Positions 36,703 through 56,866 of a DNA stretch of 64,000 nucleotides are shown in pieces. This DNA comes from Natronococcus sp. AD-5 (GTDB taxonomy: Archaea; Halobacteriota; Halobacteria; Halobacteriales; Natrialbaceae), in contig NZ_CP132294.1 in assembly GCF_030734285.1 (NCBI RefSeq), forward strand, positions 186,001-250,000, read 5' to 3'. A program made the position numbers and the translations under genes. Each line of letters starts with the position of its first letter. Position 1 is the stretch's first letter. Under the pieces are notes generated by a model. That model did no database searches. It saw nothing but the letters and a program-made list of their open reading frames with translations, and was not told the DNA's origin.

Positions 36703-38535
36703 TTAGGCTTCGTCTTCCAGGTTCTCCTGCCAGTCGAGGTAGTACCCGGTCGCCTCGGTCGGCATCTTGGAGGTGTCAGTGTTCTTCGGTTCGAACCCGA
36801 AGTGACCGTACGCGACGTCCGGCCAGCTCCAGATCCAGCCGAGCGAGTACATCTCGAGGTCACCGTTTTCACCGCGATCCTGGATCGTCGAGAACTGCGT
36901 TTCGTCGTTGGAAATCTCGACCGGGAGGTCACCGAGCTTCTGGTTGATCAGCTCGGCCATCTCTCCGTACTCCGGGGCGGACTCGTACGTGGAGGCCGTC
37001 AGCTCGAACGGCTCGTCCTCGGTGAACTTCGTCTCCTCGAGCACCTCCCGTGCGCTCTCGACGTCGGTCTCGTTGACGCCGTACGGCCATTCGTCGACCC
37101 ACTCCTCGTAGCCGTCGTCGCCGGTCGGCCACATTCGCGGCGGGGTGAAGCTGAACGCCTCGAACCCGCGCTCCTCGAGGACGTCTTCGATGAGCTCCTC
37201 GTGATCGACGGCGTACGCGATCGCCTGTCGGACGGGTCGCGGGACGTTCGTGACGTTAAACGCGAAGTAGTACGTCGCCAGTTCAGGGACGGCGAGATAG
37301 TTTGTCTCCTCGCCGTTCTCGAACGGACCGTACGTGCCGACCTCGCGACCGCTGTCGTCCTCCTCGGCGTCGATCAGGTCGGGATCGTACTGGGAGGTCG
37401 GGATCGAGCTGTTTTCGAAGACGTCCGCGTTCTGCTCCATTACGTAGGTAAACCGCGACTCCGGATCTTCGTTGATCTCCCAGTGGACGGACTCGATGCT
37501 CGCCACGGTGCCGTGGTAGTTGTCGTTGCGGACGACCCGCACCTCCTCGCCGGGAGTGAATTCGTCGAACTCGAAGGGACCGGTCCCGTTGGCCATCTCG
37601 GTCCGGAACTCGTCGTGCTCGACCTCGCCGTCGTACCCTTCGACGTCGCCGACGATCCCTTCCGGAACGATGGCGAACCCGTGGTAGGTGAGGACGTCCA
37701 GTACGGCCGGGTTGGGTTCGCGGAGGGTGAGTTCGACGGTCCGGTCGTCGACGGCCTCGACGCCGATCGAGTCGGGGACAACGCCGCCGTCGTCGTCCTC
37801 CTCGTGCTCGATGCCGAGCCCCAGCGGCGTATCGAGGATGAAGTTCCGTCGCTCGCTGTGCTCGGATTCGGCGAGCCGGCGGAACGAGTACACGACGTCG
37901 TCCGCCGTCAGTTCCCTGCCGTCGTGGAACTGGACGCCCTCTTTGAGCGTGAACGTCCAGATCGTGCTGTCCCAGGAGGCTTCGAACTCCTCGATGAGCT
38001 GGTTTTCGACCTCCGCGACTCCGTTGGGGTAGTGGGTCAGAGTCTCGTAGATCTGGTTGACGACCGTTCTCGGCGCGGCGTCGGTCGACATGATCGGATC
38101 CACTTCGTCGAAGCTGCTGATGATGAGGTTCAGCTCGGTATCCCCCTCGATCTCCACCTCGTTGTACTGCTGGTGGTATGACCCGAGTGCACCTATCTCT
38201 GGGATGTCCACGTAGTCGTACCAGAACCGTTCGCCCTTGCTGTGGTACAGCGGCAGCAGGACCATATCGTCCCTGACGGCCTCCTCGATCTCGACGTACG
38301 CCTCGTTACGGATGCCCTCGGCATCGGGGCCGGGATTCTCCAGGACCGTTTCCCAGGCTGCCTGCGCCTTATCCGCGTGCTCGTTCACCTCGTAATTGGT
38401 CTCGTCGTCGTCCTCGTCATCATCGTTGAGAAGAGCAGAACAACCAGCGAGCCCCACGGTCGCGCTTCCCCCGAGAAGCGCGAGCAGCTGTCGTCGCGAC
38501 TGATCTACACTTTTCCCATCCGGACTATCGGTCAC
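36703..38535 (-). CDS. Family-5 peptide-binding lipoprotein, circularly permuted (DppA-like, copy 1)
   Basis: 610-residue Dpp/Opp-type solute-binding lipoprotein. The Tat-type signal SRRQLLALLGGSATVGLAGC ends in the lipobox (LAGC). The order of segments is unusual. Residues about 47-130 (AQAAWETVLENPGPDAEGIR, AVRDDMVLLPLYHSKGERFW) resemble the last part of a normal family-5 protein. The canonical start (LNLIISSFDEVDPIMSTDAA, QIYETLTHYPNGVAEVENQL) follows at about residue 134. The protein ends with TGYYLDWQENLEDEA, where the missing tail would continue. So the sequence is a rotated family-5 fold. The GTG start at 38535 has a TATA-like box about 40 nt upstream. It lies on the minus strand; the damaged transporter genes are 1.4-8 kb upstream of its start. 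Confidence 0.88.
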   Translation of the reverse strand: MTDSPDGKSVDQSRRQLLALLGGSATVGLAGCSALLNDDDEDDDETNYEVNEHADKAQAAWETVLENPGPDAEGIRNEAYVEIEEAVRDDMVLLPLYHSKGERFWYDYVDIPEIGALGSYHQQYNEVEIEGDTELNLIISSFDEVDPIMSTDAAPRTVVNQIYETLTHYPNGVAEVENQLIEEFEASWDSTIWTFTLKEGVQFHDGRELTADDVVYSFRRLAESEHSERRNFILDTPLGLGIEHEEDDDGGVVPDSIGVEAVDDRTVELTLREPNPAVLDVLTYHGFAIVPEGIVGDVEGYDGEVEHDEFRTEMANGTGPFEFDEFTPGEEVRVVRNDNYHGTVASIESVHWEINEDPESRFTYVMEQNADVFENSSIPTSQYDPDLIDAEEDDSGREVGTYGPFENGEETNYLAVPELATYYFAFNVTNVPRPVRQAIAYAVDHEELIEDVLEERGFEAFSFTPPRMWPTGDDGYEEWVDEWPYGVNETDVESAREVLEETKFTEDEPFELTASTYESAPEYGEMAELINQKLGDLPVEISNDETQFSTIQDRGENGDLEMYSLGWIWSWPDVAYGHFGFEPKNTDTSKMPTEATGYYLDWQENLEDEA

Positions 38536-45414: not shown

Positions 45415-46809
45415 TCAGTCGTCGGCGACGGCATCGCCCGTGCCGCCGTTCGACGAGCGGAACTCGCCGTCGACGTACCGGTCGTCGTACAGGAGACACG
45501 CGATCTCGTGCGTCTCGCCCGTCCGGACGTGTTCCGGATCGTGCACCTCACACGGGGACGTGAACGTCTCGTCGAGCAGTTCTCGAGCCGTCTCGAAGTC
45601 GTTCGCGTGGAGCGCGTCGACGACTTCCGAGAGGGTTTGTTCGGCGACGGAGTCGGCCACCGCGTTCGGGAGGTCGAACTCGTCGCGAACCAGCTCCTCG
45701 AAGCGTTCGCGGGACACCGCGTTCGGATCGACCCGTTCGCCCTGCGTGCCCTCGATTTCGTCCACCGCGGTGATCGCCTCGAGGTCGTCGGCGTCCATCA
45801 CCCGGAGCTTGAGGTCGACGATCGATCGCCAGACCTCCTGCGGCAGGTCGATCTCGTCGGGCGGGATGATACGCGGACACCGGGTGTGGAACCGGCAGCC
45901 GGAAGGCGGGTTCATCGGCGACGGAACGGTGCCGGGCAGGAGGATCTGCTCGCCCTCCCAGAGGGGGTCGGGTTCGGGAATCGCCGAGAGCAGCGCCTCC
46001 GCGTACGGGTGGTGCGGCGGCGAGAACACCTCTTCGGTCGTCCCGATCTCCGCGAACTCGCCGAGGTACATCACGGCGACGCGGTCGGAGATGTGCTCGA
46101 CCACGCTCAGGTCGTGCGCGATGAAGATGTACGAGAGCCCGAACTCCTCCTGAAGCTCCTCGAGCAGGTTGAGGATCTGCGCCTGTACCGAGACGTCGAG
46201 CGCGCTGACCGGCTCGTCGCAGACGATGATTTCGGGGTCGACCGCGAGCGCGCGGGCGATCCCGATACGCTGGCGCTGCCCGCCGGAGAACTCGTGCGGG
46301 TACCGGTGGGCGTGGCTCGGGCTCAGCCCCACGGTCTCTAAGAGCTCGTAGATCCGGTCCGTCCGCTCCTGTCCCTCCGCGATGTTGTGAATGTCGAGCG
46401 GCTCGCCGATGATGTCGCCGACGGTGAGCCGCGGGTTCAGACTCGAGAACGGGTCCTGGAAGATGTACTGCAGGTCCTTTCGGAGGTCGCGAAGCTCCGA
46501 ACTCGAGAGGTCGGTAACTTCGATCTCATCGCGGCGGGACGGATCGTCGTCGACCCGCTGCTGGTAGTAGACCGAGCCGTCGGTCGGCTCGATCAGCCGC
46601 AGCAACGCTCGCCCGAGCGTACTCTTTCCGCAACCGGACTCGCCGACGACGCCGAGGGTCTCGCCCTCGTACAGTTCGAGATCGATTCCGTCGACGGCCT
46701 TGACCCACTGCGAGCGTCCGAGCAGGTTGTCTATGACGCCCTCGCTGGTGTCGTAGTACTTCGTCAGGTCCTCGGCCCGCAGGAGGGGCTCTTCGTTCGG
46801 TCTCGTCAT
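45415..46809 (-). CDS. dppF: Peptide ABC transporter ATP-binding protein DppF (copy 2)
   Basis: 464-residue ATPase. Walker A is [20 protein letters not shown] (about 54), the signature [19 protein letters not shown], Walker [13 protein letters not shown] and the switch FIAHDLSVV. The oligopeptide-type C-terminus starts [20 protein letters not shown] but is interrupted by an about 95-residue, mostly helical insert before [20 protein letters not shown]. The damaged copy at 43429-44738 has an insert at the same place, so it is a lineage feature. It overlaps dppD by 4 nt and completes a dppABCDF operon. Confidence 0.93.
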
Positions 46810-47900
46810 TGTCGATCACGCTCCGGGTTCGGGGCGGTCGCGCCGGCTCCGGCTTCGGCCTTAGCCGACTCGGAACGGATCTCGACGGAGTAGTCGAGGC
46901 CGTTTTGCAGGTCGCCGGTGTACTCGAGACACGCGGCTGCGCGCTCGGTATCGGTACCGGTGGCTTTCGCACCGGTTTCCGGGTCGAGCAGTGACGGCTC
47001 TCGTTTCGTACAGACGTCCTCGGCGTAGGGACACCGCGGGTGGAAGCTACAGCCCGGCGGCAGTTCGACCAGATCGGGCATCGAGCCAGGAATCGTCTGG
47101 AGTCGCTCCCGATCGGTGCCGACCCGGGGGATCGAACTCATCAGGCCGACGGTGTACGGATGTTTGGGGTCGTAGTAGAGCTCCTCGACGGGGGCCTTCT
47201 CGACCGGCTTGCCCGCGTACATGACCATCACGCGGTCGCAGACCTCGGCGACGACGCCAAGGTCGTGCGTGATGAGCTGGATGGCCGTGTCGAACTCGTC
47301 CGCCAGACTTTCGAGTTCGTCCAGGATCTGGGCCTCGATCGTCACGTCGAGCGCGGTCGTCGGCTCGTCACAGAGCAACAGATCCGGATCGCAGGAGAGC
47401 GCCATCGCGATGACCGCACGCTGTTGCATCCCGCCGGAGAACTCGTGTGGATAGTCCGAAAAGCGCGATTCGGCCTCCGGAATCCCGACGGTGTCGAGCA
47501 ACTGGATCGTCCGCTCGCGGGCTTCCTCCTCGTCGTAGTCGAGGTGGTGTCTGACCGCCTCGGCGATCTGCTCGCCGACGGTGTAGACGGGGTTCAGCGC
47601 CGTCTGTGCGTCCTGGAAGATCATGGCGATTTCGTTGCCACGGACGTCCCGGATCTCTTTTTCGCTCATCTCGAGGAGGTCCTCGCCCTTGAACAGGATT
47701 TCGCCGCTCTCGATGCGACCGGGACTCTCGATGAGCCGCATCAGCGAGAGCGCGGTGACGCTCTTGCCGGCCCCGCTCTCGCCGACGACGCCGAACTTCT
47801 CCCCGCGCTCGATGCGGTAGGAGAGGTCGTCGACGGCGGTGACGACCCCTTCTTGCGTGTAGAACTTTACCGTGAGATCGTTGACCTCGAGTAGTGCCAT
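46806..47900 (-). CDS. dppD: Peptide ABC transporter ATP-binding protein DppD (copy 2)
   Basis: 364-residue ATPase. Walker A is GVVGESGAGKSVTALSLMRL (about 36), the signature SGGMQQRAVIAMAL and Walker B LLLCDEPTTALD. The oligo_HPY-type tail contains CSFHPRCPYAEDVC, normal for this family; the final 50 residues are a low-complexity, Ala/Gly/Glu-rich tail. Motif residues that are changed in copy 1 (Walker A glycine, signature Arg/Gln) are normal here. It is 2 nt after dppC and overlaps dppF. Confidence 0.94.
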   Translation of the reverse strand: MALLEVNDLTVKFYTQEGVVTAVDDLSYRIERGEKFGVVGESGAGKSVTALSLMRLIESPGRIESGEILFKGEDLLEMSEKEIRDVRGNEIAMIFQDAQTALNPVYTVGEQIAEAVRHHLDYDEEEARERTIQLLDTVGIPEAESRFSDYPHEFSGGMQQRAVIAMALSCDPDLLLCDEPTTALDVTIEAQILDELESLADEFDTAIQLITHDLGVVAEVCDRVMVMYAGKPVEKAPVEELYYDPKHPYTVGLMSSIPRVGTDRERLQTIPGSMPDLVELPPGCSFHPRCPYAEDVCTKREPSLLDPETGAKATGTDTERAAACLEYTGDLQNGLDYSVEIRSESAKAEAGAGATAPNPERDRQ

Positions 47901-47902
47901 AG

Positions 47903-48952
47903 TTACCCACCTCCTTGCTGTTCGATGCCGGTTTCCTGGGCGTCGAACGCGTCGTTGATTCCGTCACCGATCATGTTCATCGCCATCACGAAGACGAAGA
48001 TCGCGCCGCCGGGGAAGACGGTCGCCCACCAGGGGATCGATCCGTCGGGACCCTGAATGAGCGTGTCGCGAGTCTGGTCGAGCATCGTCCCCCACTCGGC
48101 GGTGCCGGGCGGCATCCCGAGACCGAGGAATCCGAGCGCAGCGACGCCGATGACGACCGTACCGATATTGAGCGTCGCGACGACGATCATCGGCGGCATC
48201 GCGTTCGGGACGATGTGTCTGAAGATGACGGATCGGTCGCGTGCGCCGAGTGCCTTCGCCGCCATGACGTACTCGTTTTCTTTGACCGTCAGGACCTCAC
48301 CGCGGATGAGACGCGCGTACGTCACCCAGCCCGGAAGCGCGAACGCGGCGACGAGTTGCCAGTAGCCACCGCCGAGGACTGCGACGATGATCAGCGCCAG
48401 GATGAGCGCCGGGAACGCGTAGACGGTGTCGACGATTCGCATCAGGATCTCGTCGACCCAGCCGCCGTAGTAGCCGGAAATGGCCCCGTAGACCAGTCCG
48501 AAGACGCTGGTGAGGGCGACGACGACGAAGCCGATCGAGATGCTGTACCGACCGCCGTAGAGTACGCGCGAGAACAGGTCGCGCCCGTTTCCGTCGGTCC
48601 CCATCGGATGGGCGATCGTCGGCGGATCGTAGATGCCCGCATCCGAACCCGGGATCATATACAGGATCGTCGTCGGATCGTACGGCGCGAGTGCGAACGG
48701 CTGGACCGTCACGCCCATTACCGTGAGCGGCCGTGCGAAGAGCGCGAGCAGGGAGAGTACGGCGACGACGAAGAGGCCGATCAGTGCGGAACGGTTCCGC
48801 TTGAATCGCTTCCAGGCGCGCTGGAATCGGCTTTCGGTCTCTCTGCTGCTCTCTTCGGTCCACCCCGACAGCGGCTCCCGCTGTCGGACGTTCTCCGCGT
48901 CGAATCCGGAAACCTGGATCCGTCCGCGCTCGGTGTGTTCGTTGCTAGTCAT
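47903..48952 (-). CDS. dppC: Peptide ABC transporter permease DppC (copy 2)
   Basis: 349-residue permease. A cytosolic N-terminal region of about 50 residues leads to the first helix (RSALIGLFVVAVLSLLALF); a long extracytoplasmic stretch with THPMGTDGNGRDLFSR-type residues (IAHPMGTDGNGRDLFSR) follows; the coupling loop is YVMAAKALGARDRSVIFRHI. It overlaps the end of dppB by 8 nt. Unlike copy 1, the frame is open throughout. Confidence 0.95.
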   Translation of the reverse strand: MTSNEHTERGRIQVSGFDAENVRQREPLSGWTEESSRETESRFQRAWKRFKRNRSALIGLFVVAVLSLLALFARPLTVMGVTVQPFALAPYDPTTILYMIPGSDAGIYDPPTIAHPMGTDGNGRDLFSRVLYGGRYSISIGFVVVALTSVFGLVYGAISGYYGGWVDEILMRIVDTVYAFPALILALIIVAVLGGGYWQLVAAFALPGWVTYARLIRGEVLTVKENEYVMAAKALGARDRSVIFRHIVPNAMPPMIVVATLNIGTVVIGVAALGFLGLGMPPGTAEWGTMLDQTRDTLIQGPDGSIPWWATVFPGGAIFVFVMAMNMIGDGINDAFDAQETGIEQQGGG

Positions 48953-49901
48953 ATCTGATTCTCGGATCGAGTACTGCGTACAGGATGTCTGCCAGCAGAT
49001 TCGCCAGGATGATGAACACGCCGGTAAACAGCGTGATCGCCATGATGAGATTTATCTCTCGCTCGTTGATCGCCGTGATGAACTCCCGGCCGAGTCCCGG
49101 CCAGTTGAACACCATCTCGACGACGACCGAGCCGGCGACGATACCCGCGGTCAGCGTCGCGGCGAGCGTGACGACCGAGATGAGCGAGTTCCGGAGCACG
49201 TGTTTGAGAACGACCGTCCGCTCGGGCAGTCCCTTCGCTCGCGCGGCGGTCACGTACTCCTTGTTCAGTTCCTCGGCCATCGACGTGCGCATCACGCGCA
49301 TGATACTCGCTGCGGCGGCGGTCCCGATCGTGATTCCCGGGAGGACCAGGTACCACAGCATCTGGGGGTGGTACAGCGCGTGCCGGGACGGCGGAAGCAC
49401 CGGCCACAGTCCCAGCCAGAGGGCGCCGATCAGGATCAGCATCAGGCCGAGCCAGAAGTTCGGAATCGAGATGCCCGAGAGGGCGAGAAACCGACTGGCG
49501 GTGTCGGCGAACCGGTCCTTGTTGACGGCCGCGTAAATCCCGGACGGAATCGCGATCACGAGTCCGAACACCCAGCCGAAAATACCGAGGGCGATCGTTT
49601 CGGGGAGTCGCGTCGCGATGACTTCCGAAACGTCACGGCCGGAACCGACGACTTCGCCGAAGTCGCCGGTCAGGATGTTCCCCATCCAGGTCAGGTACTG
49701 CTCCCAGATCGGGCCGTCGAGGCCGTACCGGGCGCGTAGTTGGGCCTCTTCGGCCGGCGTCACGTCTGGATTCATCGCGACCATCTGGTCGATCGGGTCA
49801 CCCGGCGTGAGGTGCACCATCGCGAAGGTGATCACCGAGACGCCAAACAGGATCGGCACGATCGATAACAGTCGCTTCAGTATGAAACGTCGTAAGCTCA
49901 T
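48945..49901 (-). CDS. dppB: Peptide ABC transporter permease DppB (copy 2)
   Basis: 318-residue permease with about six helices. The N-terminus is MSLRRFILKRLLSIVPILFG; GDPIDQMVAMNPDVTPAEEA and LDGPIWEQYLTWMGNILTG form the extracytoplasmic region, and the coupling loop is YVTAARAKGLPERTVVLKHV. Start 54 nt after dppA, stop overlapping dppC. Complete and in frame. Confidence 0.95.
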   Translation of the reverse strand: MSLRRFILKRLLSIVPILFGVSVITFAMVHLTPGDPIDQMVAMNPDVTPAEEAQLRARYGLDGPIWEQYLTWMGNILTGDFGEVVGSGRDVSEVIATRLPETIALGIFGWVFGLVIAIPSGIYAAVNKDRFADTASRFLALSGISIPNFWLGLMLILIGALWLGLWPVLPPSRHALYHPQMLWYLVLPGITIGTAAAASIMRVMRTSMAEELNKEYVTAARAKGLPERTVVLKHVLRNSLISVVTLAATLTAGIVAGSVVVEMVFNWPGLGREFITAINEREINLIMAITLFTGVFIILANLLADILYAVLDPRIRYD

Positions 49902-49955: not shown

Positions 49956-51920
49956 TTACTCGAGGTCGTGCTCGTCGACTACTTCTTCGAGCAGTTCCGC
50001 GGCGGCTTCGGGATCGTACTCGTTGTACGGCTTGATCGTCGACACGAGTTCGTCGGTGTCGACGGTCCCGGTCTCCTGGGCGAGCTCCGGCACGTCGGTC
50101 CAGGCCGGACGGGCCCAGCCGTTCAGCACGTTTTCGACGATCTGTTCGCGCGGAATGAGGTGGTTGATGGCCTGTCGAAGCCGCTTGTCGTCCCACGGCA
50201 TCTCGTCGCCGGCGGCGCGAATCGGGTACTGGATGTACTCGTACCCGCCCGCCTCGACCGCATCGACGACGTAATCGTCGGAGCTGTCGAACTCGTCGAG
50301 GTCCGACGTGGAGAGCCCGTACGTGATGTCGATTTCGTCGTTCTGCAGCGCGGCGGAGCGGCTCGAGTCGTCCGGAACGATCCTGATTTCGATGTCGTCG
50401 ATGACGGGACCGTCCGGGAACTCGTCGGCGACGTCGGACCACTTGTCGCTCGCTTCGATCTTCTGTTGGAGGCCGATCTCCTCGAGCCAGTAGCTGTCGT
50501 TTTTCGTGTACTCGACGTACTGCTCGTCGGAGAAGTCGGCGAACTCGTAGGGACCGGTCCCGATCGGATCGTTACCCTGTCGCGGGTCGAGGTCGCCGCC
50601 CTCGAGGTCGGCCTGCTCGAGCGAGTGGATGTACAGCGTCCCGGGCAGTTCCCGTTCCGCCTCGGCGTCGGGAACCTGGGCGTAGAGGTTGACCGTGTAG
50701 TCGCCGTCCGCTTCCGCGTGGAGCAGCGAGTCGAACGTCTGGGCCTCGAGGTCGGAGTTGTAGAGGCGTTCGACGGTCGCGATCACGTGCTCGGACGTGA
50801 ACTCCTCGCCGTTGTGGAACGTCACGCCCTCGTGGAGGTCGTACTGGAACTGCATTCCGAAGGTGCCGTCCTCGGCCGCTTCGGCGGCGTCGTCGGGAAG
50901 AAGGACGCGAACCTCGTCGTCCTCGACCGGATCGTCCTCGGGGTGGTAGACGATGACCTGCTCGTCGGTGTCGAGGATGCCCTCCTCGTCCGCGCCGACG
51001 GTCGACATGTACGGCTCGTAGTCGAGTCGTTCGACGTCGTTGGTCTCGACGAGCTCGTAGTCCTCGGCGAGCCACGGGTAAAGGTTGCCCTCGCTGTCCG
51101 ACGTGACCAGCGTTTCGAAAATGAAGAACTGTGCGAGGCTTGCGGTCGTGTCGGTGCTGTACGGCGGATCGAACGAAGCGACGTTCGCGCCGACGGCGCC
51201 CCGGAGGGCGCCGCCTTCCTGCAGGTCGGAGAGATCCGTGTCCCGCGGATCGGACTCCTCGTCGATCCACATGACCTGCTCGTCCTGCGGGGAGTGAAGC
51301 GCGTAATCGAAGATGCTCTCCGAGAACGGGAACATGCTGAACCCGTGCACGTTGTTGTTCGTCACGCCCGCCTCGAGGTCGAAGTGCGTGATCGAACTGT
51401 ACCGTTCCTCGGCGAGGTGCTCCCAGATCTCGTCGTATCGTTCGGCGCGGAACTCCTCGTCTTCCGCGACGTCGACGCCGTACCGAGCGTCGTCGAGCAT
51501 CTCGTCGAGATCGGAGTCGTCGACGCCGACGAGGTTACAACACTGGCCGTGGTTCGTGCTGTGGTGGAGCGCCTGACAGAAACTCTCCGGGTTGAACGTT
51601 CCCGAGAGGCCGATACAGGGGACGACTCCCTCTTCGGCGTACTCGAGGTCCATCACGCGCTCGACGTAGTTATTCCACTCGTAGGTCTCGATCTCGGTCG
51701 TGAAGTACCCCGACTCTTCCAGCGAGGCCGAGATTAGGTCGACCATCTGCACACGGTCGTCGTTGTCAGAGTTGACCTCCAGCTGAACGTGGAACGGGGC
51801 ATCGCCGCCCTCGTCGCCGCCGAGGCACCCTGCAACTGCTGCGATACTGACTCCACCAACACCCTGAAGCAATCGTCGCCGATTGACGTCAAGGGAGGAT
51901 TGCTTGTGATCCTGCACCAT
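49956..51920 (-). CDS. Family-5 peptide-binding lipoprotein, circularly permuted (DppA-like, copy 2)
   Basis: 654-residue solute-binding lipoprotein with a Tat-type signal (NRRRLLQGVGGVSIAAVAGC). Segment order is rotated. Residues about 43-235 are what usually forms the C-terminal lobe: HVQLEVNSDNDDRVQMVDLI, then IETYEWNNYVERVMDLEY, LHHSTNHGQCCNLVGVDDSD and RAERYDEIWEHLAEERYSSI. Then comes the canonical N-terminal lobe, GGALRGAVGANVASFDPPYS (about 236). The protein ends at YDPEAAAELLEEVVDEHDLE, where the usual C-terminal lobe would begin. Joining the end to residue 43 restores a continuous family-5 sequence. The rotation point differs from copy 1. It heads the intact dpp operon; a TATA-like box lies about 26 nt before the ATG. 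Confidence 0.92.
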   Translation of the reverse strand: MVQDHKQSSLDVNRRRLLQGVGGVSIAAVAGCLGGDEGGDAPFHVQLEVNSDNDDRVQMVDLISASLEESGYFTTEIETYEWNNYVERVMDLEYAEEGVVPCIGLSGTFNPESFCQALHHSTNHGQCCNLVGVDDSDLDEMLDDARYGVDVAEDEEFRAERYDEIWEHLAEERYSSITHFDLEAGVTNNNVHGFSMFPFSESIFDYALHSPQDEQVMWIDEESDPRDTDLSDLQEGGALRGAVGANVASFDPPYSTDTTASLAQFFIFETLVTSDSEGNLYPWLAEDYELVETNDVERLDYEPYMSTVGADEEGILDTDEQVIVYHPEDDPVEDDEVRVLLPDDAAEAAEDGTFGMQFQYDLHEGVTFHNGEEFTSEHVIATVERLYNSDLEAQTFDSLLHAEADGDYTVNLYAQVPDAEAERELPGTLYIHSLEQADLEGGDLDPRQGNDPIGTGPYEFADFSDEQYVEYTKNDSYWLEEIGLQQKIEASDKWSDVADEFPDGPVIDDIEIRIVPDDSSRSAALQNDEIDITYGLSTSDLDEFDSSDDYVVDAVEAGGYEYIQYPIRAAGDEMPWDDKRLRQAINHLIPREQIVENVLNGWARPAWTDVPELAQETGTVDTDELVSTIKPYNEYDPEAAAELLEEVVDEHDLE

Positions 51921-52124: not shown

Positions 52125-52691
52125 CTAATCGCCCTCTTCGTCGACGATCACGACTTCGCCGTCGACGACGTCGACGTTGATCAGCGTCTTGACGTCGTAG
52201 CCGGCGTCGTCGACCTTGTTCTCGCCGCCGACCTTCTTGATGACGGCGACCGTGTCGATGACCTCGGCGCCGATGCCGTCGAGCGCCTCGAGCACCGAGG
52301 CGAGCGTGCCGCCCGTCGAGAGCACGTCGTCGAGAACGAGGACGCGCTCGCCCTCGCGCACGTCGTTGATGTACATCTCGTTCTCCGAGTAGCCCGTCTG
52401 CTGGGAGATCGCGACCTCGTCTTCGAGGCCGTACTGGCGCTTCCGAATGACGGTCAGCGGAATGTCGGTCATCAGTGAGACGGCCGTCGAGATGTGAATG
52501 CCCATCGCCGCCGGCGTGACGATCCGGTCGACTTCCTCGAGCTCTGCCTTGCGGATGATGCGAATGACGATCTCGCGGAGCAGGGTCGGATCGAGCTTCG
52601 GGACCCCGTCGCTGATCGGATGGACGAAGTAGTGATACCCGTTTTTCTCGATGATGGGCGCGTCGAGAAGCGACTGCTTCAACTGGTCCAT
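52125..52691 (-). CDS. hpt: Hypoxanthine/guanine-type phosphoribosyltransferase
   Basis: 188-residue purine salvage enzyme of the archaeal type. The PRPP-binding motif is [20 protein letters not shown] (about 116-135); a hydrophobic loop and [19 protein letters not shown] precede it. Cytosolic; transfers the phosphoribosyl group from PRPP to hypoxanthine or guanine. A TATA-like ACTTTTACT lies about 30 nt upstream of ATG 52691. It is followed on the same strand by dppA upstream in the operon map but separated by 200 nt and its own promoter region. Confidence 0.92.
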
Positions 52692-52748: not shown

Positions 52749-53342
52749 TTAGTCGTCCGCACTGTAGCTGAGTTCCGGCGGCTGGTCGCCGTGCCCGAGT
52801 CGCATGTGTCGCTCGTGGTAAATGTGAGCGGCCGCCGTCGCGGTGAATACGACGGCGATGATCCCCGCCCAGGCGAGATCCGAGAGGGCGGTAAACACCG
52901 GCACGTCGAGCCAGAGCCCGGCGACGAGCGCACAGCTGATCGCGCCGAGCGAGAGGTACAGCTCGCGCCAGGCGAACTCCCGCCCGGGGACGATCTCGAG
53001 GTAGACGCTGATCTCCCGGGTGCGTTCGGTCGACTCGATCACACCCCGGTCGCTGTCGAAGGTGAGGATTCTCGCTTCGTCCATCTTGGGGAGGTGGGTT
53101 TGCTGGAGCGTCGTGTACACTCGCTTGCGCTGTTCGGGCGTGACGCCCTCGAGCGTGGTCTCGTACTCCCAGGCGGCGATCTGCTGGGCGAGATCCCCGA
53201 GCTCGACCGGGCGGCCGTCCTGTTTCAGAAAGTGCAAGACGTACCGCCGCCGCTGGTTGCGAAGGACTTCGAATATCTCCCCCTTGGAGAGCATCTCGTC
53301 GTCACTGTCGTCGGCATCGTCGTTGCGTTGTTGCTGGGCCAC
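52749..53342 (-). CDS. DUF7344-type winged-helix membrane protein
   Basis: 197 residues from a GTG at 53342, with the same architecture as the protein at 21-635. A winged-helix region (about 20-115) contains GEIFEVLRNQRRRYVLHFLK and THLPKMDEARILTF. Two hydrophobic helices follow (LYLSLGAISCALVAGLWL and WAGIIAVVFTATAAAHIYH). Membrane-tethered putative regulator of unknown target. About 100 nt of leader separates it from the nearest TATA-like sequence (TTATATAG). Confidence 0.8.
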   Translation of the reverse strand: MAQQQRNDDADDSDDEMLSKGEIFEVLRNQRRRYVLHFLKQDGRPVELGDLAQQIAAWEYETTLEGVTPEQRKRVYTTLQQTHLPKMDEARILTFDSDRGVIESTERTREISVYLEIVPGREFAWRELYLSLGAISCALVAGLWLDVPVFTALSDLAWAGIIAVVFTATAAAHIYHERHMRLGHGDQPPELSYSADD

Positions 53343-54724: not shown

Positions 54725-56866
54725 TCACGGATCGATTCGCCGTCGTCCCGCCGTAGAGAGCGGATTCGACACCTCGCTCGTCATGTACTCGTGGCGCTTT
54801 CCGCGAAGGCGCATCGCGGTCAGCGCCTTGTGCGTCGTCGATTCGGCGAACAGCGCGCGCTCGTCGCGCCGGATTCGCTCCTCGGGAGCCGCCGCGTCCG
54901 TTCGGATCGTCTCGAAGGCTCGCTCGCACTGCTCGCCGATCCGCGCCCAGCAGTCCCGCTCGTCGACGGGGAGTTCGTCGGCGATCGTCGCGACGAGTTC
55001 CGCCAGATGATTCTGGAAGAGCGCGTAGTACAGCTTCCAGTAGAGGTCCTCGTCGCCGTCGGCGTCGAGGTCCGAGTCCGGATACGGCTCGAGCGAGAGC
55101 CCGCGCTCGGCGAGCCGTTCCCCGTGAACCCGGATCCCGCCGAGGTCGCGTACCAGGGTCGCGACCGGGCGCGCCTCCGCGGCGTCGAAGACGATCAGGC
55201 TGTTCTGGAGGTGGCTCTCGAGGGCGACGCCGTACTCGCTCAGCAGGTACAGCTGCTCGGGAACGACGACGTCGGCGTACCGATCGACGAACTCGAGCGC
55301 CGCGTCGGCGGTGTTCGCGGCGCCCGTCCGCTCCCCGTATCGATCGATCACCTCGCAGACGAGGGGCCGGCCGGCGGTCGGCGCGTCGGCGACGAGGCTC
55401 GAGGCCACGACCGGAACCGTCCCCGCGTCCGCGAGCGGGTGAGCGGACGGATTCGTCCGAAGCAGTCCCGAGAGGTGCCGCGCGTCGTCGAACCCGTCGC
55501 CACCTGGGTGCGGCCCGCCCGGCGGGTAGTAACACGTCGCCGCCGGTTCGGCCAGCAGCCCCAGCGTCTCGAGCGACTCCCGCTCCTCGATCGCTCGCAC
55601 GACGTCGGTCACCTGCGGCCCGTTCGCCACGGCGTGGGGCGACAGCGTCCGAACGACGTTCGTCGTCTGGACGGGAATCGCGAGTTTGAGGTGCGGGAGC
55701 GGCCCATTAGCTGTGCGCTCGGTATCGTAGGGAACCACCGTTCGGAGGTTGAGCTGCGGCGTCGCCGGATGCGCGGAGTCGGGAATCGGAACGACTCGTC
55801 CGTCGGCGCGCTGCCGGGCGTAGCGGTCCGGTATCGTCCGGTGGTACTGCAGCGGGTGAACGGGGACGACGGCGTACTCGTCTCGCGCGCGTTTCGCGGG
55901 AATCGCGCGCTCGAGAGCGCCCTCGAGTCCGTCGAACGTCGCGCACAGTCGATCGGTCAGCCGCTCGGCACCGTCCGCGCGGGTCTCGAGGGCGTACTCC
56001 CGGTCGACGGCGACGAATCGGATGTCGATTCGGTCGGTGAACTCCGGCGCGTAAGCGAGCCCCTCGGCGGCGTTCATCCCCCGCCGTATCTTGCCGGCGG
56101 GGTGAAACGGGTGGCCGTCGGTGACGATCCGCTCGAAGGCGGTGGCGGGATCCGCGGCCGAGATGCCGGTCGAAATCGCCTCGAGGCTCGAGTCGAGCGT
56201 CGCGTCGGTTTGCTCCCGGACGACCCGCGAGTGGACGCGGCCGGCCAGCCGCGCCAGCGCGAGGTTGGCGACGCTCTCGGCCACCTCGTCCCGGATCCGC
56301 TCGGCCTGATCGGCGTCGCTGAACGCGCCCTCGCGCTCGAGGAGCGGGACGAGTTCGACCGGGTGTGCGAGCCGTTCGCGCTCGTCGGGATTTTCCCCCG
56401 TTGCCTCGCTCGGCTCGGTCGTCGGGCCCAACCGTCGGACCGGCCCGACGAACCGGAATCGGTCGTAGCCGTGTCTCGCCGCGATCGGGACCGCCAGAAG
56501 CGTCTCGGACGCGGGAAACGGGAGGAGCGCGAGCCGACGACGGCGGTCCGGGAGCGGCTCGGCGAGCGAGCGCAGGCGAGCGGCGTCGAGGTCGTCGAAC
56601 GGCGCCAGTCCCTTCGGAAGGGCGGAAGGGGACGGTTCGACGAGGTGCGGGTCGGGAAGCCCCGCCGGTTTCCCCCGGAGGATCCCGCGAACGAACCGGC
56701 GGAGGATCTCCCGGCGGGCGTCCTCGAGCGCCGCGAGATACGGCGCTTCCGCCGGCGTCCCGAGGGCGTGTGTTCGCGCGTACCGGGCCGCGGCGCCGAG
56801 TGCCCCTCGCTCGGCGCACGTCCGTAAGCGTTCCGAATCCCGGTCTCGTCGGGTCGTTCCGGTCAT
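54725..56866 (-). CDS. IucA/IucC-family NIS siderophore synthetase
   Basis: 713-residue NRPS-independent siderophore synthetase, longer than the 580-620 residues usual for the family. Typical motifs are DGHPFHPAGKIRRGMNAAEG (about 250-269), EYAVVPVHPLQYHRTIPD, LNLRTVVPYDT and LESHLQNSLIVFDAAEARPV. It couples citrate- or succinate-derived carboxylates to amines or alcohols to build a siderophore. The extra length is in the first 130 residues, which carry the Arg-rich RRRLALLPFPASETLLAV. No aminotransferase, decarboxylase or hydroxylase of the usual siderophore gene set is nearby, so the product is unclear. It lies between the FAD protein and coaBC on one strand. Confidence 0.9.
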   Translation of the reverse strand: MTGTTRRDRDSERLRTCAERGALGAAARYARTHALGTPAEAPYLAALEDARREILRRFVRGILRGKPAGLPDPHLVEPSPSALPKGLAPFDDLDAARLRSLAEPLPDRRRRLALLPFPASETLLAVPIAARHGYDRFRFVGPVRRLGPTTEPSEATGENPDERERLAHPVELVPLLEREGAFSDADQAERIRDEVAESVANLALARLAGRVHSRVVREQTDATLDSSLEAISTGISAADPATAFERIVTDGHPFHPAGKIRRGMNAAEGLAYAPEFTDRIDIRFVAVDREYALETRADGAERLTDRLCATFDGLEGALERAIPAKRARDEYAVVPVHPLQYHRTIPDRYARQRADGRVVPIPDSAHPATPQLNLRTVVPYDTERTANGPLPHLKLAIPVQTTNVVRTLSPHAVANGPQVTDVVRAIEERESLETLGLLAEPAATCYYPPGGPHPGGDGFDDARHLSGLLRTNPSAHPLADAGTVPVVASSLVADAPTAGRPLVCEVIDRYGERTGAANTADAALEFVDRYADVVVPEQLYLLSEYGVALESHLQNSLIVFDAAEARPVATLVRDLGGIRVHGERLAERGLSLEPYPDSDLDADGDEDLYWKLYYALFQNHLAELVATIADELPVDERDCWARIGEQCERAFETIRTDAAAPEERIRRDERALFAESTTHKALTAMRLRGKRHEYMTSEVSNPLSTAGRRRIDP

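Follow-up and report, generated by a model that had tools for sequence, protein, structure and literature searches.

How does a binding protein whose segments stand in rotated order come to serve an otherwise ordinary peptide importer? The question is raised by a lipoprotein gene of 654 codons with an ATG start at 49956..51920 (minus strand) of the window, the 64,000-nucleotide stretch of haloarchaeal DNA analysed here, whose product (the query) had been described in an earlier note as a circularly permuted family-5 binding protein. We are confident that the query is a lipid-anchored, circularly permuted substrate-binding protein (SBP) of a Dpp/Opp-type (family 5, cluster C) ABC importer, that it most likely keeps the ordinary two-lobe fold and feeds an unchanged DppBCDF, and that the permutation, which probably arose in place, belongs to a recurrent set with at least four cut points.

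Segment order of the query protein

The gene and its parts were delimited from the open reading frame, Pfam matches, structure alignments and a profile doubling test. The chain begins with a Tat-type (twin-arginine) signal peptide with a lipobox, recognized from the sequence at residues 1-32 (MVQDHKQSSLDVNRRRLLQGVGGVSIAAVAGC; 51825..51920, minus strand), in which residue 32 is the lipobox cysteine. The canonical C-terminal part, now at the front, is placed by the alignments and the doubling test at residues 41-217 (51270..51800, minus strand). It is followed by an acidic linker of about 18 residues that bridges the two canonical termini, C to N (about residues 218-235; 51216..51269, minus strand), and then by the canonical N-terminal and middle part (residues 236-654; 49959..51215, minus strand), which the alignments, Pfam and the doubling test all support. 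This last part terminates at the helix preceding the canonical C-terminal part, and the new chain ends correspond to the loop after the 'YDPEAAAELLEEV' helix.

The rotated order follows from alignment to solved family-5 structures, in which residues 33-199 match the C-terminal parts (3m8u 341-498, 1xoc 359-506) and residues 233-646 match the N-terminal and middle parts. Earlier proposals that a usual C-terminal lobe stands right after the lipobox, that the canonical first lobe begins near residue 236 and that the protein's end would join residue 43 all agree with the alignments, the join falling at about residue 41-43. In its native order the query matches a single Pfam family, SBP_bac_5 (PF00496), at 190.5 bits against a curated cut-off of 32.4, and does so in two stretches, the main one breaking off at position 275 of the 368-position profile, close to the C-terminus of the chain, and the second lying elsewhere. 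The query therefore does not run collinearly from N to C over the whole family, and we file it as a permuted variant of SBP_bac_5 rather than as a standard member because all segments are present after rotation. Family membership suggests a peptide-like ligand; no NCBIfam equivalog cut-off is reached by the query and no name is assigned above cut-off. None of the 60 top-ranked PDB matches listed for a rotated bacterial protein follows the entire chain collinearly.

The profile doubling test, in which each mature protein is scored once and again written twice against a profile of 61 conventional haloarchaeal proteins, gives 453 bits (best domain) for the query and 673 bits for the self-concatenated query, a gain of 220 bits. 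Gains of 33-236 bits are obtained for all 73 haloarchaeal proteins classed as rotated, and gains of at most 3.6 bits for 60 of the 61 conventional ones; the exception in the conventional set, L020 (+46 bits), is itself rotated, with another cut point. Because orthologs of the query went into the profile, its ortholog family (family A) receives inflated absolute scores, and it is the gain that matters. The initial split into rotated and conventional proteins had been made by the length remaining behind the middle core, whose distribution has two modes (18-85 versus 187-309 residues, with one protein of the late-cut type between them at 145), and the doubling test is therefore a second, partly independent criterion. 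It rules out chance or weak resemblance as the source of the rotated pattern.

The permuted chain would most likely adopt the ordinary two-lobe structure, to judge from its full complement of aligned segments. An AlphaFold2 model built from a shallow alignment of 7 close orthologs has a mean pLDDT of 42 and a pTM of 0.33. We considered whether the C-terminal part of one rotated chain might complete the N-terminal part of another in a domain-swapped dimer, an arrangement that would suit the shortness of the linker (about 18 residues) and that cannot be read from sequence, as is true of oligomeric state in general. However, the canonical N- and C-termini of family-5 SBPs are near each other in lobe I, so that a short linker should suffice for a closed chain, and close conventional orthologs serve the same transporter. 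We regard such a dimer as very unlikely and favour the closed two-lobe chain.

Rotated and conventional orthologs at the same locus

The genes behind the query run in the same direction and encode a DppB-like permease (48945..49901; Pfam BPD_transp_1), a DppC-like permease (47903..48952; BPD_transp_1 and OppC_N), a DppD-like ATPase (46806..47900; ABC_tran and oligo_HPY) and, as the conserved last gene of the operon, a DppF-like ATPase recognized as an open reading frame (45415..46809), all on the minus strand. The query thus has the BPD_transp_1 permeases and oligo_HPY-type ATPases of an SBP_bac_5/cluster C operon, and the intact dpp operon noticed earlier is located gene by gene. Upstream, at 52125..52691 (minus strand), lies a phosphoribosyltransferase-like gene that also neighbours many rotated and many conventional orthologs. 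A DUF7344 protein (52749-53342, minus strand) is kept near the operon in several relatives, and an IucA/IucC-type siderophore synthetase with an FhuF domain (54725-56866, minus strand) is encoded a few genes upstream of the dpp operon.

A match to the query at 1e-30 or better is found in 97 of the 391 genomes of the class. Of the nine genomes of the genus, eight, among them the one that contains the window, encode rotated orthologs (52-83% identity). Such orthologs extend to several further genera and families and are present in more than 30 genomes in all, near-complete chromosomes among them. Other haloarchaea carry, at the same locus, orthologs of conventional order that are up to 67% identical to the query, which are the unrotated homologs with the same segments expected of a natural permutation. 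Examples such as L016/L064, L062, L069 and L017 are like the query in the type of signal peptide, in their neighbours and in an identity of about 54-67% over both parts, but have the conventional N-to-C order. Rotated and conventional orthologs share the series phosphoribosyltransferase gene, SBP, dppB, C, D and F (for example conventional L069 and rotated L091), the gene upstream of the SBP differing in part of the synteny sample. The rotation took place at this locus, with the signal peptide remaining in front. These conventional orthologs in the same operon position are stronger proof of permutation than the earlier note had, and together with the structure alignments and the 220-bit gain they bear out its central claim.

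Some homologs come from draft genomes or MAGs, L020 in particular, which might point to an artefact of assembly or annotation or to a rearranged pseudogene. For the query's family, L020 apart, this explanation is already refuted, and we give it practically no weight: the same order recurs across several families in more than 30 genomes, near-complete chromosomes included, the gene is a single open frame throughout, and dN/dS is well below 1 (0.05-0.27 in both moved segments, eight pairs), which indicates purifying selection. Since these values accompany an intact operon, the protein is most likely functional, in line with the earlier expectation. The permuted SBP would serve the unchanged DppBCDF as its conventional orthologs do, with the membrane anchor attached elsewhere on the protein.

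Repeated changes of order within family A

The rotated family-A proteins do not form one clade in the SBP tree. A tree constrained to unite them is 79.5 log units worse (p-AU 4e-5), and parsimony gives three changes of order, two of them forced by starred branches. The transporter tree, built from the unrotated B, C, D and F genes, likewise gives three changes and rejects a single rotated clade. The most instructive pair is L045 (rotated) and L069 (conventional), which are sisters in the SBP tree (UFBoot/SH-aLRT 100/99), on the C-part alone (100/92), more weakly on the N-part alone (87/76), and in the independent B+C+D+F tree (100/98; the L045 operon is L091). The two signal peptides hardly differ. 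Because the two part trees agree on this pair, both segments have moved together, and a chimera of two unrelated SBPs is ruled out.

A weaker model for family A, with one origin and a change in L069 only, is not rejected (p-AU 0.108), and the conventional group L016/L062/L063/L066/L070 therefore need not represent a further reversal. The junction linker of L045 resembles those of other rotated proteins and is unlike conventional N-terminal linkers, which makes a return of L069 to the conventional order the likelier direction; one lineage has thus probably gone back.

Could the rotated and conventional genes of family A be old paralogs, their mixture in the tree resulting from differential loss and horizontal transfer rather than from repeated rotation? 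The SBP and transporter trees disagree in places, so some exchange of SBPs is likely, and L085-L087 carry both forms, but there the conventional one is a distant paralog (34-44%). Moreover, L045 and L069 group together for SBP and transporter genes alike at the same locus, and one event cannot yield four distinct cut points. We judge this account improbable, and prefer repeated rotation. In L085, L086 and L087 the rotated SBP adjoins dppB and dppC, with no D and F seen that would belong to it; the conventional paralog lies on the opposite strand together with B, C, D and F genes of its own.

Cut points beyond family A

Cuts were placed by pairwise alignment with conventional sisters, except that cut 1 in groups C-E and in bacteria was placed from profile coordinates. 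Cut 1, after the helix 'AAELLEEV', is that of family A, of the haloarchaeal paralog groups C, D and E, and of Alphaproteobacteria. Cut 2 lies just before the same helix and is found in group B (L024-L027 and others), with L118 as a conventional relative. Cut 3 lies further upstream than cut 2, in the L136 type (11 genomes). Cut 4 is late, near the C-terminus, and is represented by a second permuted family-5 SBP lipoprotein of the window (610 aa, GTG start; 36703..38535, minus strand) and by same-cut orthologs in more than 20 genomes. The conventional sisters of cut-4 proteins, for example L117, L201 and L202, are 54-59% identical to them. Since cut 4 moves only a short piece, undoing it adds few bits (11-28); loci L196 and L200 show zero doubling gain, yet the moved piece is detected at their front. 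Among the neighbours scanned around the second SBP, no transporter genes were found.

Cut points 1-4 are well supported, and imply at least four independent rotations. A fifth is possible in one MAG contig, where L020 has a candidate cut in a loop of the N-part. The ortholog of the query at this locus (L020/L203; MAG G038, contig C138) is cut inside the N-terminal part, its canonical C- and N-termini still being fused. A quick tree of a 135-protein set gives 8-10 changes of order, 5-7 of them forced by starred branches, rough figures because of long branches. The differing cut points, like the SBP and transporter trees within family A, rule out a single origin of all rotated proteins.

Five of the 13 family-5 SBPs of this genome are rotated. 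At L107 (G000:C1:522400-526200) the same genome has another two rotated family-5 SBPs, separated by about 2 kb. In ten further haloarchaeal genomes many PF00496 matches end at profile position 285-288, with the remainder upstream in several cases. All three relatives checked from other families of the phylum (L174-L176) are conventional. The four alphaproteobacterial rotated proteins that were verified fit the conventional profile far better once the rotation is undone. Cut-1 proteins are encoded on alphaproteobacterial plasmids within transporter operons (Nitratireductor, Ketogulonicigenium and Roseomonas; the Neorhizobium record is unannotated), and two annotated operons of this kind (among L164-L167) are flanked by hydantoinase/oxoprolinase and M20/M28 peptidase genes.

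A probable route to the rotated order

The junction of the rotated proteins suggests how the order may have changed. A C-terminal tail like that of the conventional ortholog (..DEQVMW.DE) leads into an acidic linker like the conventional one behind the lipobox (..DLQEGGTLR), the remnant expected of an in-frame tandem duplication followed by loss of the outer parts. We propose that the gene body was probably duplicated in frame and in tandem behind an unchanged signal peptide, and that the first N-terminal and the last C-terminal part would then have been lost, which would leave the canonical C-terminal part directly after the lipobox and the canonical C- and N-termini fused by the acidic linker. 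No duplication intermediates (C-N-C or N-C-N) were seen among the proteins examined. A PxxTDxSDLQEGGTLR-like linker motif is common to many rotated family-A orthologs and absent from the 16 conventional ones examined; an ad hoc junction regular expression matched 12 of 18 rotated and none of 16 conventional linkers, figures to be taken as a lead rather than a count since its anchor pattern missed many rows, which went unscored.

We lean slightly towards a general reading in which rotation of haloarchaeal family-5 SBPs is a recurring event at the locus itself, the lipoprotein signal peptide staying fixed while the chain behind it is cut at four or more different points. At least one lineage would have returned (L069, which sits within a group of rotated orthologs with a common junction linker), and the change would be reversible and either nearly neutral or a tuning of the anchor in a working transporter.

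Relation to known binding proteins

Beyond what the earlier note recognized, the query belongs to a recurring series of rotations made at several cut points, and the window holds a second rotated SBP. As a rule, natural circular permutations are old one-time events, recognizable only when structures are compared. In the present case orthologs of both orders, up to 67% identical, occupy the same operon, which opens the cause, mechanism and cost of a permutation to direct study. The proteins bear on where a lipid anchor may attach to a binding protein and on the choice of permutation sites for SBP-based biosensors. For annotation, collinear profiles cut rotated proteins short, and the architecture therefore goes unnoted.

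Compared with the family-5 SBPs (SBP_bac_5, PF00496, cluster C) DppA, OppA, AppA (1xoc), HbpA (3m8u) and NikA, the query has all segments and likewise an operon of two permeases and two ATPases, but its segment order is rotated and its lipid anchor precedes the C-terminal part. We found no permuted family-5 SBP in the literature, in a search that reached a minority of subscription journals, and a single relevant precedent: Treponema pallidum has a lipid-tethered ABC-importer SBP, TpMglB-2 (Tp0684; designated 'Type Ic / cluster Bc'), that is circularly permuted by nature. Its authors offered the speculation that the new topology might be favoured by tethering (PMC4990184). The query resembles TpMglB-2 in being a naturally permuted, lipid-tethered SBP of an ABC importer. 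TpMglB-2, however, belongs to the type I / cluster B class, binds glucose and has another cut point, whereas the query is a PF00496 protein whose best matches among solved structures are family-5 proteins rather than the type I / cluster B fold. In TpMglB-2 the permuted segment has little sequence similarity left, in contrast to the query with its closely similar conventional orthologs at the same locus, and the SBP type to which the query belongs, unlike TpMglB-2, shows several cut points.
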